Below are positions 25,266 through 28,554 of a stretch of DNA of 49,458 nucleotides, in pieces. Origin of the DNA: Methanomicrobium sp. (lineage in GTDB: Archaea; Halobacteriota; Methanomicrobia; Methanomicrobiales; Methanomicrobiaceae); assembly GCA_017412625.1 (NCBI GenBank), contig JAFPWZ010000071.1, forward strand, positions 1 to 49,458. The letters are read 5' to 3'. How positions within the stretch are numbered: the first letter of the stretch is position 1; the number at the start of each line of letters is the position of its first letter. The notes under the pieces were generated by a model that was not told the DNA's origin, searched no databases, and was given only the letters and a program-made list of their open reading frames with translations. Position numbers and translations under genes: made by a program.

Positions 25266-26138
25266 TCAGGCATCGGTTTTGCCTGTAATCATATCGCGAA
25301 TCTTCTCTGGAGACTCGACAATATTGTATTTTTTCGCGAAATACGTTGTAATGTTTGAGATATCGCGAAGGAGGATATCATCGGCATTCTGATGGGTCGG
25401 CTCTATCCACTGCGGCCAGTCGATTACCCAGACCGAATCGCCGTCTGTCATCACATTGAACTCGGATAGGTCGTTATGGATGAATCCGAGTTCGTAGGCC
25501 TTTTTTATGTTTGCGAATATGGCGTCGAATACCTCACGCGGCTCTTCAAGGACTGCCTGATGGAGGTTGACGCCGGCAATATAGGACATTGCGACTACAT
25601 TGCGGTTTACGGCTATCGGGATGGGCACATTGACGCCGCCTTTCCTAAGGGCTTTGAGGGCTTCAAACTCCTGTCTTGCCGAGTATGTCGAGGCAAATAT
25701 CCACGGGAAATGACTCCACTCCGGCATAAATCCGCGGTTAAGTCTTGCCGACTGAAACGATCTCTGACCTATGCAGTGAAGTTTTATCACGAGAGCACCC
25801 GTTCCCAGCGCCTCATAGACCGAGGATTCCTTGCCGACGCCGATGAGCGAGCCCAAAGCCGTTACGGTGCCGTTCTTGACAAGCGAGGTTACGGCAAGCG
25901 CGTCGTATCCCGAAAATGTGAGCTGATATCCCCTGTAGGGCACGGAACTGCTCTTGACCATGTTCTTCTCCATGAGCTGACCGAGCCTGTATTCCATCTC
26001 CGCTGCAGAAAGACGCGAGCTTTTCCGGATGTTCTCCTCCGGCACCCAGAGGTATTTCTTCATGAGCCTCTCCAACGTCTTAAGAAGCAGGATTTCATAT
26101 TTGTGAAGCCCTTTTATGTCCCCGGGAGATACCGTCAT
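25266..26138 (-). CDS. rio2: Rio2-family serine/threonine protein kinase/ATPase
   Basis: RIO kinases act in small-subunit ribosome maturation. The 290 residues contain the Rio2-specific N-terminal winged helix (about 1-85), the glycine-poor ATP loop GVGKESSVYEA (100-110), Lys119 in LVIKLH, the catalytic loop HNDLSEFNVM (Asp223) and the metal-binding IDWPQ (Asp240), where RIO proteins have IDFPQ. ATG at 26138 has no Shine-Dalgarno, and only 40 bases separate it from the divergent gene at 26179, so the two promoters must overlap. Confidence 0.94.
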   Translation of the reverse strand: MTVSPGDIKGLHKYEILLLKTLERLMKKYLWVPEENIRKSSRLSAAEMEYRLGQLMEKNMVKSSSVPYRGYQLTFSGYDALAVTSLVKNGTVTALGSLIGVGKESSVYEALGTGALVIKLHCIGQRSFQSARLNRGFMPEWSHFPWIFASTYSARQEFEALKALRKGGVNVPIPIAVNRNVVAMSYIAGVNLHQAVLEEPREVFDAIFANIKKAYELGFIHNDLSEFNVMTDGDSVWVIDWPQWIEPTHQNADDILLRDISNITTYFAKKYNIVESPEKIRDMITGKTDA

Positions 26139-26178: not shown

Positions 26179-26931
26179 GTGCTTAACACCAAGGATCTTA
26201 CAAATATCATGAAATGCTCCAAATGCGCTTGCGATGCCGTAATTACGCAGAGATACTCGGGTATGAGCCTGTGCCCCCTGCATTTCACCGAAGATTTTGA
26301 GTCGCGGGCGAAGAAAGCGATACGAAAACACAGATGGCTCTCGCCTAACGACTGCATTGCCGTTGACTTCGACGGCAGTTTCGCCGCGGCGGCACTCCTT
26401 CATCTGCTTGCGAAGTTCTTCGGAAAGCGTCCCGATATCAGGCTTATTGCCGTCGGCGACGACGAAGAGACTCTCAAAGAGGTCGCGGAAATATACGGAA
26501 TTGAATATGCACCAGGTTCTGCACTTAGGTCGCCAGACATCGCGGGAGAACTCGGCTGCACAAAGATTGCGGTTGCGGCAACGCTCGATTCCGAAGCGGA
26601 GTTTGTCTTTGAATGCATACTCAAAGGCGATTCGGAGGGTCTGTTAAGCCGCGGCAGAGGCGGAGACGGAGAAATTCCCATGATAATGCCGATAATGAAC
26701 ATTCCGGCGGCAGAGGCGGAACTTTACTGCCGCATTCACGGAATTGATGCGGGAGATGAAGCGGCATGCGAAATCCGCGATAACGGCGCAGACGCAGAGT
26801 TCCCTAAACTCGCAAAGGAACTTCTGGACGATTATGCCGACGAACACCCCGCCGCTAAATACGCTCTTGTAAACCTCATGGAAGAGTTTCAAAACGCGGA
26901 TATGCGGGATGATTCCGAAAGAGAGATTTAA
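26179..26931 (+). CDS. Degenerate Ncs6/TtuA-like protein lacking the PP-loop motif
   Basis: A 250-residue relative of the tRNA thiolase family Ncs6/TtuA. The N-terminal zinc motif is kept (Cys13, Cys16, Cys32, His35, in CSKC and LCPLHF), and the following helix FESRAKKAIRKHRWL fits the family. But where active members have SGGKDS, this has VDFDGSFAA (about 62-70) before the conserved ALLHLLAKFF; where they have TGHNLDDEAQ it has AATLDSEAE (near 135-143). The C-terminal Cys cluster of true enzymes is absent. It is therefore unlikely to bind ATP or thiolate tRNA as usual. GTG at 26179 is preferred, with AGGTGAT upstream; ATG at 26209 is possible. nadE follows after 97 bases. Confidence 0.75.
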   Translation: MLNTKDLTNIMKCSKCACDAVITQRYSGMSLCPLHFTEDFESRAKKAIRKHRWLSPNDCIAVDFDGSFAAAALLHLLAKFFGKRPDIRLIAVGDDEETLKEVAEIYGIEYAPGSALRSPDIAGELGCTKIAVAATLDSEAEFVFECILKGDSEGLLSRGRGGDGEIPMIMPIMNIPAAEAELYCRIHGIDAGDEAACEIRDNGADAEFPKLAKELLDDYADEHPAAKYALVNLMEEFQNADMRDDSEREI

Positions 26932-27028: not shown

Positions 27029-27802
27029 ATGAAAGAACTCTGCGAAGGATGCGAATGCGAAAAGATTGAGCAGATGATACGTCACACGGTCTGGTCGTCG
27101 GGACGAAATAAGATAGTCATTGGACTCTCGGGCGGCATCGACTCGGCGCTTGCGGCAGTCCTCTGCACAAGAGCGGTGGGAGCGGAAAATGTCCTCGGAT
27201 ACATGCTTCCGTCTTCCGTGACGCCGAAAGAGGATATCGACGACGTAAAGGCACTCTGCGAAAAGTTCAACATTAAACTCGCAATTGTGCCCATTACAGG
27301 ACTAATCGAAGAATTCTCAAAGATTGACGGCTTCACTGACTCCCGCTACCTTCTCGGCAATGTCATGGCACGCCTGAGGATGACAATCCTTTACTATTAC
27401 GCAAACCAAAATCGGGGTCTCGTCTGCGGCACCTCAAACAAGAGCGAGTATCTTCTCGGATACTCGACGAAACACGGAGACGATGCCGGGGATATCGAGC
27501 CGCTCATGCATCTCTACAAATCCGAGGTCCGCATTCTTTCGGCATTCACCGGTGTCATTCAGCCGATTATCGACAAAACACCCTCGGCAGGTCTTTACAG
27601 CGGTCAGAGCGACGAGAAGGAGATAGGGTTTACATACGACGTCATAGACGAAGCGCTGAGAAATCTTGAGGCAAACAACTGGAAACCGCAGAACGATACC
27701 GAGAACGCCATACTCGAAAAAGTAAAGAAAGCGGCGCATAAGAGGAATGCACCCCCGAATCTGCTGAAAGACGGCGGAACGGACGGCGGCTGCAGGATTT
27801 AA
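27029..27802 (+). CDS. nadE: NAD+ synthetase
   Basis: Converts nicotinic acid adenine dinucleotide to NAD with ATP and an amino donor. The 257 residues have the PP-loop IGLSGGIDSALAAVL (Ser34-Ser39), VCGTSNKSEYLLGYSTKHGDDAGDIEPL and KTPSAGLYSGQSDEKEIGF, all hallmarks of NadE. There is no glutaminase domain, so free ammonia is the likely nitrogen source. GAGG (27019-27022) lies six bases before the ATG. The N-terminus has three Cys residues (CEGCEC). It converges on the sugar isomerase gene with only 11 bases between them. Confidence 0.96.
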   Translation: MKELCEGCECEKIEQMIRHTVWSSGRNKIVIGLSGGIDSALAAVLCTRAVGAENVLGYMLPSSVTPKEDIDDVKALCEKFNIKLAIVPITGLIEEFSKIDGFTDSRYLLGNVMARLRMTILYYYANQNRGLVCGTSNKSEYLLGYSTKHGDDAGDIEPLMHLYKSEVRILSAFTGVIQPIIDKTPSAGLYSGQSDEKEIGFTYDVIDEALRNLEANNWKPQNDTENAILEKVKKAAHKRNAPPNLLKDGGTDGGCRI

Positions 27803-27804
27803 AA

Positions 27805-27818
27805 AATAAATATTTATT
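27805..27818. terminator. Palindromic A/T element between nadE and cupin isomerase genes
   Basis: AATAAATATTTATT is a perfect 14-base palindrome flanked by A- and T-rich sequence, spanning the 11-base gap between two converging stops. It could serve both strands as a weak terminator. Confidence 0.35.
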
Positions 27819-28554
27819 CTATTTTCGGCTGATTCGTCAGAAATCTCTGATACTGTGGTGCTTTTACCGTATCGAGAATCTTTGGAACATTGAGATATTT
27901 GGGGAGAATATCTCCGCCTATGAATGAGTATATCGGAACGCCGTGCTGAAGACCCAGTTCGGGAATCTCGAAAGAATCGATGACTCTTATCTCGGGCAGT
28001 CCTTCGGGATAGTGCGGATTTCTGATAAAGCCCGAATCGAGTTCGTAGTAAGCGGCGCCGTGCATCTCGCCGTAGAACTCATATTCGCTCTCAAACTCGC
28101 AGGAGACTATATTTGCCATCACAAGCCTGTCCTTTGAAGGATTAATGGTCACATGCCCGTATCCGCTGGGAATCAGAACGACGTCCCCCGCAGTCGCACG
28201 AATCACGCATACATCGCTTAAGTTGCGGTTCTGAAGGAGAAAATGTGCTTCGCCCCCGAGAACCTGATAGAGTTCGGGATAAGCTCTGCCGCAGGGCGCA
28301 TTCGGATGGTAATGCCCCTTGGTCTTTACAAACTCGGCCCCGATTTTGTTTGCGGGAATCACCGTAATATCGTATCTAAGACCGTTATCTTCCAGCCATT
28401 TCGCATCCCTTTCGTTCTTCGAAAGAGCGCGGTACATAAAATAGAGCGGAGTATTAGGATCCATGCCCGACTTAGTATCGTAGAGCACGGATTCCATATC
28501 CTTTAATGTGCGTTCACCCGCCTTGGGAAACGGTCCGTCCCAGAAATTATGCAT
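27814..28554 (-). CDS. pgiA: Glucose-6-phosphate isomerase, archaeal cupin type
   Basis: Interconverts glucose-6-phosphate and fructose-6-phosphate. The 246 residues belong to the metal-dependent cupin isomerase family unrelated to the classic PGI. Seen: TKGHYHPNAPCGRAYPELYQ (metal-binding His-X-His and Glu), GGEAHFLLQN and SGYGHVTINPSKDRLVMANIV (third metal His). The family core is about 190 residues; here an extra C-terminal segment of about 50 residues (GLPEIRVID...YLNVPKILDTV) is present, as in some methanogen members. The ATG overlaps the upstream CARDB-protein stop by eight bases, so translation of the two is likely coupled. Confidence 0.93.
   Translation of the reverse strand: MHNFWDGPFPKAGERTLKDMESVLYDTKSGMDPNTPLYFMYRALSKNERDAKWLEDNGLRYDITVIPANKIGAEFVKTKGHYHPNAPCGRAYPELYQVLGGEAHFLLQNRNLSDVCVIRATAGDVVLIPSGYGHVTINPSKDRLVMANIVSCEFESEYEFYGEMHGAAYYELDSGFIRNPHYPEGLPEIRVIDSFEIPELGLQHGVPIYSFIGGDILPKYLNVPKILDTVKAPQYQRFLTNQPKIE

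Follow-up and report, generated by a model that had tools for sequence, protein, structure and literature searches.

Repeated conversion of the tRNA thiolase NcsA into a conserved pseudoenzyme in Methanomicrobiales, and its association with a second, intact NcsA

Introduction

What does a gene do that has kept the reading frame, fold and zinc finger of a tRNA thiolase and lost the motifs by which such an enzyme acts? The question is raised by a locus of the window analysed here, a stretch of 49,458 nucleotides from Methanomicrobium sp. (assembly GCA_017412625.1, contig JAFPWZ010000071.1, positions 1 to 49,458), in which such a frame lies between a divergent rio2-type kinase gene and nadE. Archaea are said to thiolate U34 with a single NcsA, homodimeric in the case of MmNcsA, and eukaryotes with a complex of two proteins, Ctu1/Ctu2, proposed as derived from an NcsA-like homodimer; Ctu2 is devoid of the Fe-S cysteines and only presumed to orient the tRNA, its production in soluble form having so far resisted attempts (PMC10067955). 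Thiolation linked to a ubiquitin-like protein (Ubl) exists in archaea as well, since in Haloferax NcsA goes together with SAMP2 and UbaA (PMC4048286). In the literature searched we found no degenerate NcsA described from archaea, and what is new here is an archaeal series of dead subunits with many origins.

Results

The window gene encodes an NcsA-fold pseudoenzyme

The reading frame at 26179-26931 (+) is uninterrupted, and its product is a protein of NcsA/Ncs6 fold that lacks PP-loop, Fe-S cysteines and C-terminal zinc finger (Table 1). In the alignment with intact orthologues, SGGKDSSA of the PP-loop has become DGSFAAAA and NLDDEAQ has become TLDSEAE; CPYS and the C-terminal CxxC..CxxC are absent, and the region that holds the three [4Fe-4S]-binding cysteines of a catalytic NcsA/Ncs6/TtuA thiolase (CxxC and CPY) is deleted or replaced. 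The N-terminal zinc finger, CxxC...CxxH, is present both in the alignment and in a Pfam scan of the frame, which returned TtuA_LIM_N (34 bits, N-terminal zinc-finger part) as the sole family match and no PP-loop family; the NCBIfam NcsA model gives 51 bits, its cut-off being 500. A profile built from degenerate copies nevertheless matches NcsA 6SCY along almost the entire length (E 1.5e-28), so that the homology is not a matter of chance, and the AlphaFold model (AF2; pLDDT 87.6, pTM 0.85) shows the overall thiolase fold, with 6SCY as the top solved structure in Foldseek (TM 0.83, E 3e-16). TtuA, the tRNA m5U54 2-thiolase (5MKO, 3VRH, 5GHA), belongs to the same superfamily and has the same fold (Foldseek E 1e-14 to 1e-12) but is a weaker match than NcsA, and all catalytic motifs are absent from the window protein. 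The first-pass annotation, made from the letters alone, had described an Ncs6/TtuA homologue bereft of its PP-loop and C-terminal Cys cluster and had called for a structural comparison with TtuA; the description holds, and the comparison places the model in that superfamily with NcsA as its closest member. The protein is a pseudoenzyme and, as far as its motifs tell, unable to act as a PP-loop enzyme or stand-alone thiolase.

One detail of that annotation does not stand, namely the GTG start at 26179 with its good ribosome-binding site: this codon is out of frame in the relative RGIG7908 owing to a 1-nt deletion, and the GGTGAT around it reads GTTGAT in M. mobile. Given the loss of frame in so close a relative, the likely start codon is ATG 26209 (MKCSKC), which is conserved and at which the homology begins.

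Table 1. Positions in the window of the pseudo-NcsA gene, its motifs and its neighbours
Feature	Position	Strand	Remarks
Rio2-type kinase, divergent neighbour	25266..26138	-	Adjoins both intact and degenerate copies
Pseudo-NcsA ("D") CDS	26209..26928	+	240 aa from conserved ATG; annotated ORF from GTG 26179; stop 26929-26931
Retained N-terminal zinc finger, CxxC...LCPLH, and Q-x-Y-S-G motif	26215..26283	+	Pfam TtuA_LIM_N; conservation in 101 degenerate copies
Degenerate PP-loop, VDFDGSFAAAA in place of VAMSGGKDSSA	26362..26394	+	Alignment with intact orthologues
Site of a deletion of ~45 residues; two Fe-S cysteines (CSYCGVLRR) removed	26467..26541	+	Alignment
Eroded second active-site motif, AATLDSEAEF in place of MGFNLDDEAQS	26575..26604	+	Alignment
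Retained C-terminal HPAAKYALVNL motif	26845..26877	+	HP conserved; kept even in 180-200-aa forms
nadE (NAD synthase), downstream neighbour	27029..27802	+	Same position by intact (f3) and degenerate (f1, f3, f5, f6) copies
Cupin-type PGI-like gene	27814..28554	-	Conserved syntenic neighbour

The pseudoenzyme arose in place from an intact NcsA

By A we mean an NcsA that is intact and lies at the rio2 locus, by D a gene of that locus with broken catalytic motifs, and by B a second intact NcsA. An RNaseH-like gene and rio2, divergent to A or D, make up a neighbourhood common to both classes in 5/5 families examined, and nadE and the cupin-type gene, which we take to be phosphoglucose isomerase-like, follow downstream of A or D wherever the lineage possesses them and the retrieved sequence extends that far; the orthology of the copies from genus f1g1 was settled by synteny. 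It follows from this shared neighbourhood that D is an A gene converted where it stands; in the window the gene so converted, next to rio2, is the NcsA that remains intact in most Methanomicrobiales. Since intact A lies beside rio2 in several families, the adjacency is older than the loss of activity, and the position of D next to nadE and rio2 is inherited rather than specific. The idea that D might be a neofunctionalised regulator tied to one of these neighbours, raised in the first-pass annotation and prompted by an adjacency that is indeed conserved, is hardly credible on these grounds, the more so as the variable linked with D is B, which is encoded elsewhere.

Conversion has occurred repeatedly within the order

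The three classes were surveyed in 232 Methanomicrobiales genomes; for A in genomes without B, the sequence itself was inspected in a sample, and intactness in the others was deduced from the score relative to intact A. Copies of D are present in each of the six families (f1 to f6) of Methanomicrobiales, range in length from 180-200 aa (f6g21) to more than 300 aa, and stand at stages from one or two changes (SGSKDS/CSCC in G111, SGDGDS in G045) to complete erosion. In the genus of the window, D is found in the window genome, in M. mobile (G019/L034) and in RGIG7908 (G021/L033), and three further members (G018, G020, G022) carry intact A. An intact motif in close orthologues had been proposed beforehand as a sign of local mutation; such orthologues do exist among the congeners, but the loss is common to three species and recurs throughout the order, which rules out both a local mutation and a sequencing artefact.

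In the tree B forms one clade (SH-aLRT 98) and A and D together another (SH-aLRT 99), in which the distribution of D needs 9 changes, at least 6 of them forced by well-supported branches. Constraining D to one clade costs 279 log-likelihood units and is rejected by the AU test (p 5e-77), so that a single ancient pseudoenzyme clade is ruled out. Both states are found within f1g1, f3g11, f4g12, f4g28, f5g13, f5g16, f5g20 and f2, and the observations point to about eight or more conversions, the exact number of origins being uncertain because long branches draw many D copies together. In Methanomicrobiales, then, NcsA turned into a pseudoenzyme repeatedly. A tree built from the N-terminal 92 residues alone offered too little sequence to locate the window trio, and a phylum sample of 60 genomes (~52 of them outside Methanomicrobiales), read by ORF length, showed mostly NcsA-length proteins and no clear D form.

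Two peculiarities of individual lineages may be recorded. Genome G074 has two pseudo-NcsA copies, L067 (G074:C35) and G074:C154:139-822, of 252 and 260 aa, with 45% and 41% identity to the window protein. The pseudo-NcsA proteins of f6g21 (L251-L261, L269, L270, L147), ~180-200 aa long and under strong purifying selection, have been reduced to the zinc finger, Q-x-Y-S-G, a short core and an (H/R)PGTxYALKN end.

The pseudoenzyme is maintained by purifying selection

D is under purifying selection, dN/dS being 0.19-0.30 in the window trio (0.05-0.17 for neighbouring genes and 0.09-0.16 for B), 0.08-0.23 in the shortest, Methanocorpusculum-like forms and 0.15-0.53 in the remaining lineages for which it was computed; it is the fastest-evolving gene of its neighbourhood, though constrained, and these ratios rule out the status of a pseudogene. 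The earlier impression that the gene is not decaying is thereby confirmed, as it also is by its conservation in three rumen Methanomicrobium species. Across 101 D copies the zinc ligands and the Q, S and G of Q-x-Y-S-G are conserved at 99-100%, its Y at 97% and HP at 98-99%, and the broader set of CxxC/CxxH ligands, Q14, Y16, S17, G18, R39, R74, E206, Y210 and HP at 96-100% (numbers are those of the G018 A protein, counted from the trimmed start).

These figures also bear on whether D could be a relic that is decaying slowly in the individual lineages and persists by chance or for folding only. The existence of early-stage copies (SGSKDS, SGDGDS, SGGKNS), a G139 copy split into two frames and an evolution faster than that of the neighbours, which is also expected under partly relaxed constraint, would all fit such a relic; yet dN/dS is well below 1 in every lineage tested and falls to 0.08 in the shortest forms, the zinc ligands, Q-x-Y-S-G, R39 and HP are 97-100% conserved in the 101 copies, and D is present in nearly every genome that bears B (in the sole apparent exception, G127, rio2 is lacking too), all of which makes this explanation very improbable.

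D goes together with a second, intact NcsA and its ubiquitin-like partner gene

The first-pass annotation had asked for a second, intact ncs6 in the genome, and one is present: the B gene of the window genome at C62:12294-13205. Counted in genomes at least 90% complete, D occurs with B in 69 and without it in 2, and A with B in 7 and without it in 56 (Fisher test, relatedness ignored, p 3e-27); with one B inferred across a contig break, this amounts to B in 70/71 D genomes versus 7/63 genomes with intact A. In the eight taxa that hold both states, the taxon-level contrasts all (8/8) run in the same direction, and no genome with both A and D was found among the Methanomicrobiales surveyed. D is thus linked with the presence of B. 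Intact A stands together with B in 12 genomes, 7 of them at least 90% complete, from which it is clear that B does not force the conversion of A.

The apparent exceptions were inspected individually. G069 does not count as a case of D without B, as its contig breaks within the Ubl gene, the one that stands before B in the sister genome G059; in G043 (91% complete, 190 contigs) D is present and B was not found. Conversely, G127 was discarded as a case of B without D, the rio2 orthologue being missing too, and the D/rio2 locus is probably missing from that assembly.

Directly upstream of B the window genome encodes a Ubl of 64 aa that ends in FFAHGG (C62:13211-13405 (-); also L285:5712-5906), and a Ubl of 62-66 aa ending in HGG occupies the same place in 47/47 readable B loci across the order, a count that omits two B-labelled rows scored negative, G186 and G216, the latter a fragment of 171 aa and probably an A gene. 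The Ubl belongs to the ThiS family and gives a sub-threshold SAMP2-like match as well. No Ubl was found beside A or D loci, three automatic matches there being unrelated frames. An E1-like ThiF gene lies near B in both genomes examined for it, the window genome (C62:10471-11223) and G059, where a class-V aminotransferase of cysteine-desulfurase type accompanies it beside B. The arrangement typical of Urm1/SAMP systems, a Ubl with C-terminal GG by a thiolase and an E1-like enzyme, is therefore found at B and not at D, with the E1 seen in these two genomes.

Two further observations concern the B locus. In the window genome B is followed directly by a LarE-like PP-loop gene (C62:11330-12157 (-)). 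The B proteins L098 (G038, f2) and L243 (G231, f5) are near neighbours in the tree, with branch lengths of 0.08, although they belong to different families, which suggests that the Ubl-B pair may have been transferred horizontally between families.

B and D carry complementary residues

Q14, Y16, S17, R39 and R74 are 97-100% conserved in D versus 2-25% in B lineages, whereas K58, D59, the Fe-S cysteines and other core residues reach at least 90% in B versus less than 40% in D; to judge by sequence, the two proteins complement each other, B carrying the catalytic residues lost by D and D the apparent surface residues missing in B. Methanococcus NcsA carries QKHSG at the position of Q-x-Y-S-G, for which reason the Q..SG part looks ancestral. 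The evolutionary distances of D and B remain correlated after removing rio2 (partial r 0.41, p 5e-4; rio2 sequences were partial for some genomes), modest evidence that the two may be paired.

Discussion

We favour, with moderate confidence, the reading that D is the non-catalytic subunit of a putative B-D thiolase, an archaeal parallel of Ncs6-Ncs2 with Urm1-Uba4; the suggestion of the first-pass annotation that D might be a partner of the active enzyme gains support, as a possibility, from its association with a second intact NcsA. That D is conserved and linked with a catalytic paralogue in which D's conserved surface is missing is most simply explained by a B-D heteromer fed by the Ubl, and we infer that the complex would be a heterodimer, that its substrate would be tRNA U34 and that the retained residues would serve in tRNA binding. 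Against this reading may be set the genomes in which intact A coexists with B, the case of G043 and the fast evolution of D.

A different account, which we consider doubtful though it deserves attention, is that D keeps an old non-catalytic function of NcsA, such as the binding of partners in translation or RNA processing, and does so independently of B, which would merely have relieved it of thiolation. An old second function would account equally well for the link with B and for the zinc finger and surface residues that D has kept, and Haloferax NcsA reportedly binds EF-1alpha, aCPSF1 and PAN (PMC4048286). Independence of B is, however, at odds with the correlation of D and B distances beyond rio2, and B is without the surface residues of D, of which Q..SG is found also in Methanococcus NcsA, which works alone; lacking residues of a stand-alone enzyme, B looks incomplete by itself.

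Under the preferred B-D heteromer, the starting point would be a stand-alone archaeal NcsA (a tRNA 2-thiolase), converted at its own locus. In a lineage that has B behind a Ubl sulfur carrier, B would assume ATP-dependent thiolation by means of its [4Fe-4S] centre, and the former A would shed its PP-loop, Fe-S cysteines and C-terminal zinc finger while retaining the N-terminal zinc finger with Q-x-Y-S-G, two arginines and the C-terminal HP helix. D would take one half of the former homodimer, where it may hold or orient the tRNA or dock the carrier, and B, in the other half, would activate U34 and transfer sulfur from the thiocarboxylated Ubl.

Compared with known systems, D resembles archaeal NcsA (Methanococcus maripaludis 6SCY; Haloferax volcanii HVO_0580) in its fold, its N-terminal zinc finger, its sequence over most of the length and, within Methanomicrobiales, its orthologous locus, but differs from it in the three elements lost. 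Like eukaryotic Ncs2/Ctu2, D is a dead NcsA-family paralogue without Fe-S cysteines that has kept the N-terminal zinc finger in the presence of an intact paralogue, and as in the Ncs6/Ctu1-Ncs2/Ctu2-Urm1-Uba4 system it co-occurs with that paralogue, a ubiquitin-like carrier and an E1-like gene. Ctu2, however, is reported to keep the C-terminal zinc finger, which the window protein lacks and some copies elsewhere keep, and D arose separately and repeatedly within Methanomicrobiales from the local NcsA and not by common descent with Ncs2: in a tree built without eukaryotic sequences, D falls among the Methanomicrobiales A copies, whose locus it shares. A shade less firmly, we lean towards the broader view that Methanomicrobiales repeatedly made a two-part thiolase, with B catalytic and D non-catalytic, from a homodimeric NcsA and a dedicated Ubl, and thereby re-invented independently the composition of eukaryotic Ncs6-Ncs2-Urm1-Uba4, with intermediates in living species. 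If true, this would provide a rare natural replicate series for the passage from a homomeric enzyme to a heteromer, and the role of the dead subunit would become directly testable in a small archaeal pair that has arisen independently many times and left graded intermediates. Very early catalytic losses (SGSKDS, SGDGDS, SGGRGS, SGSKGS) are seen in L194, L192, L198, L135 and L191, from f4g12 and f4g28, most of these genomes having B, and such copies are useful natural intermediates.
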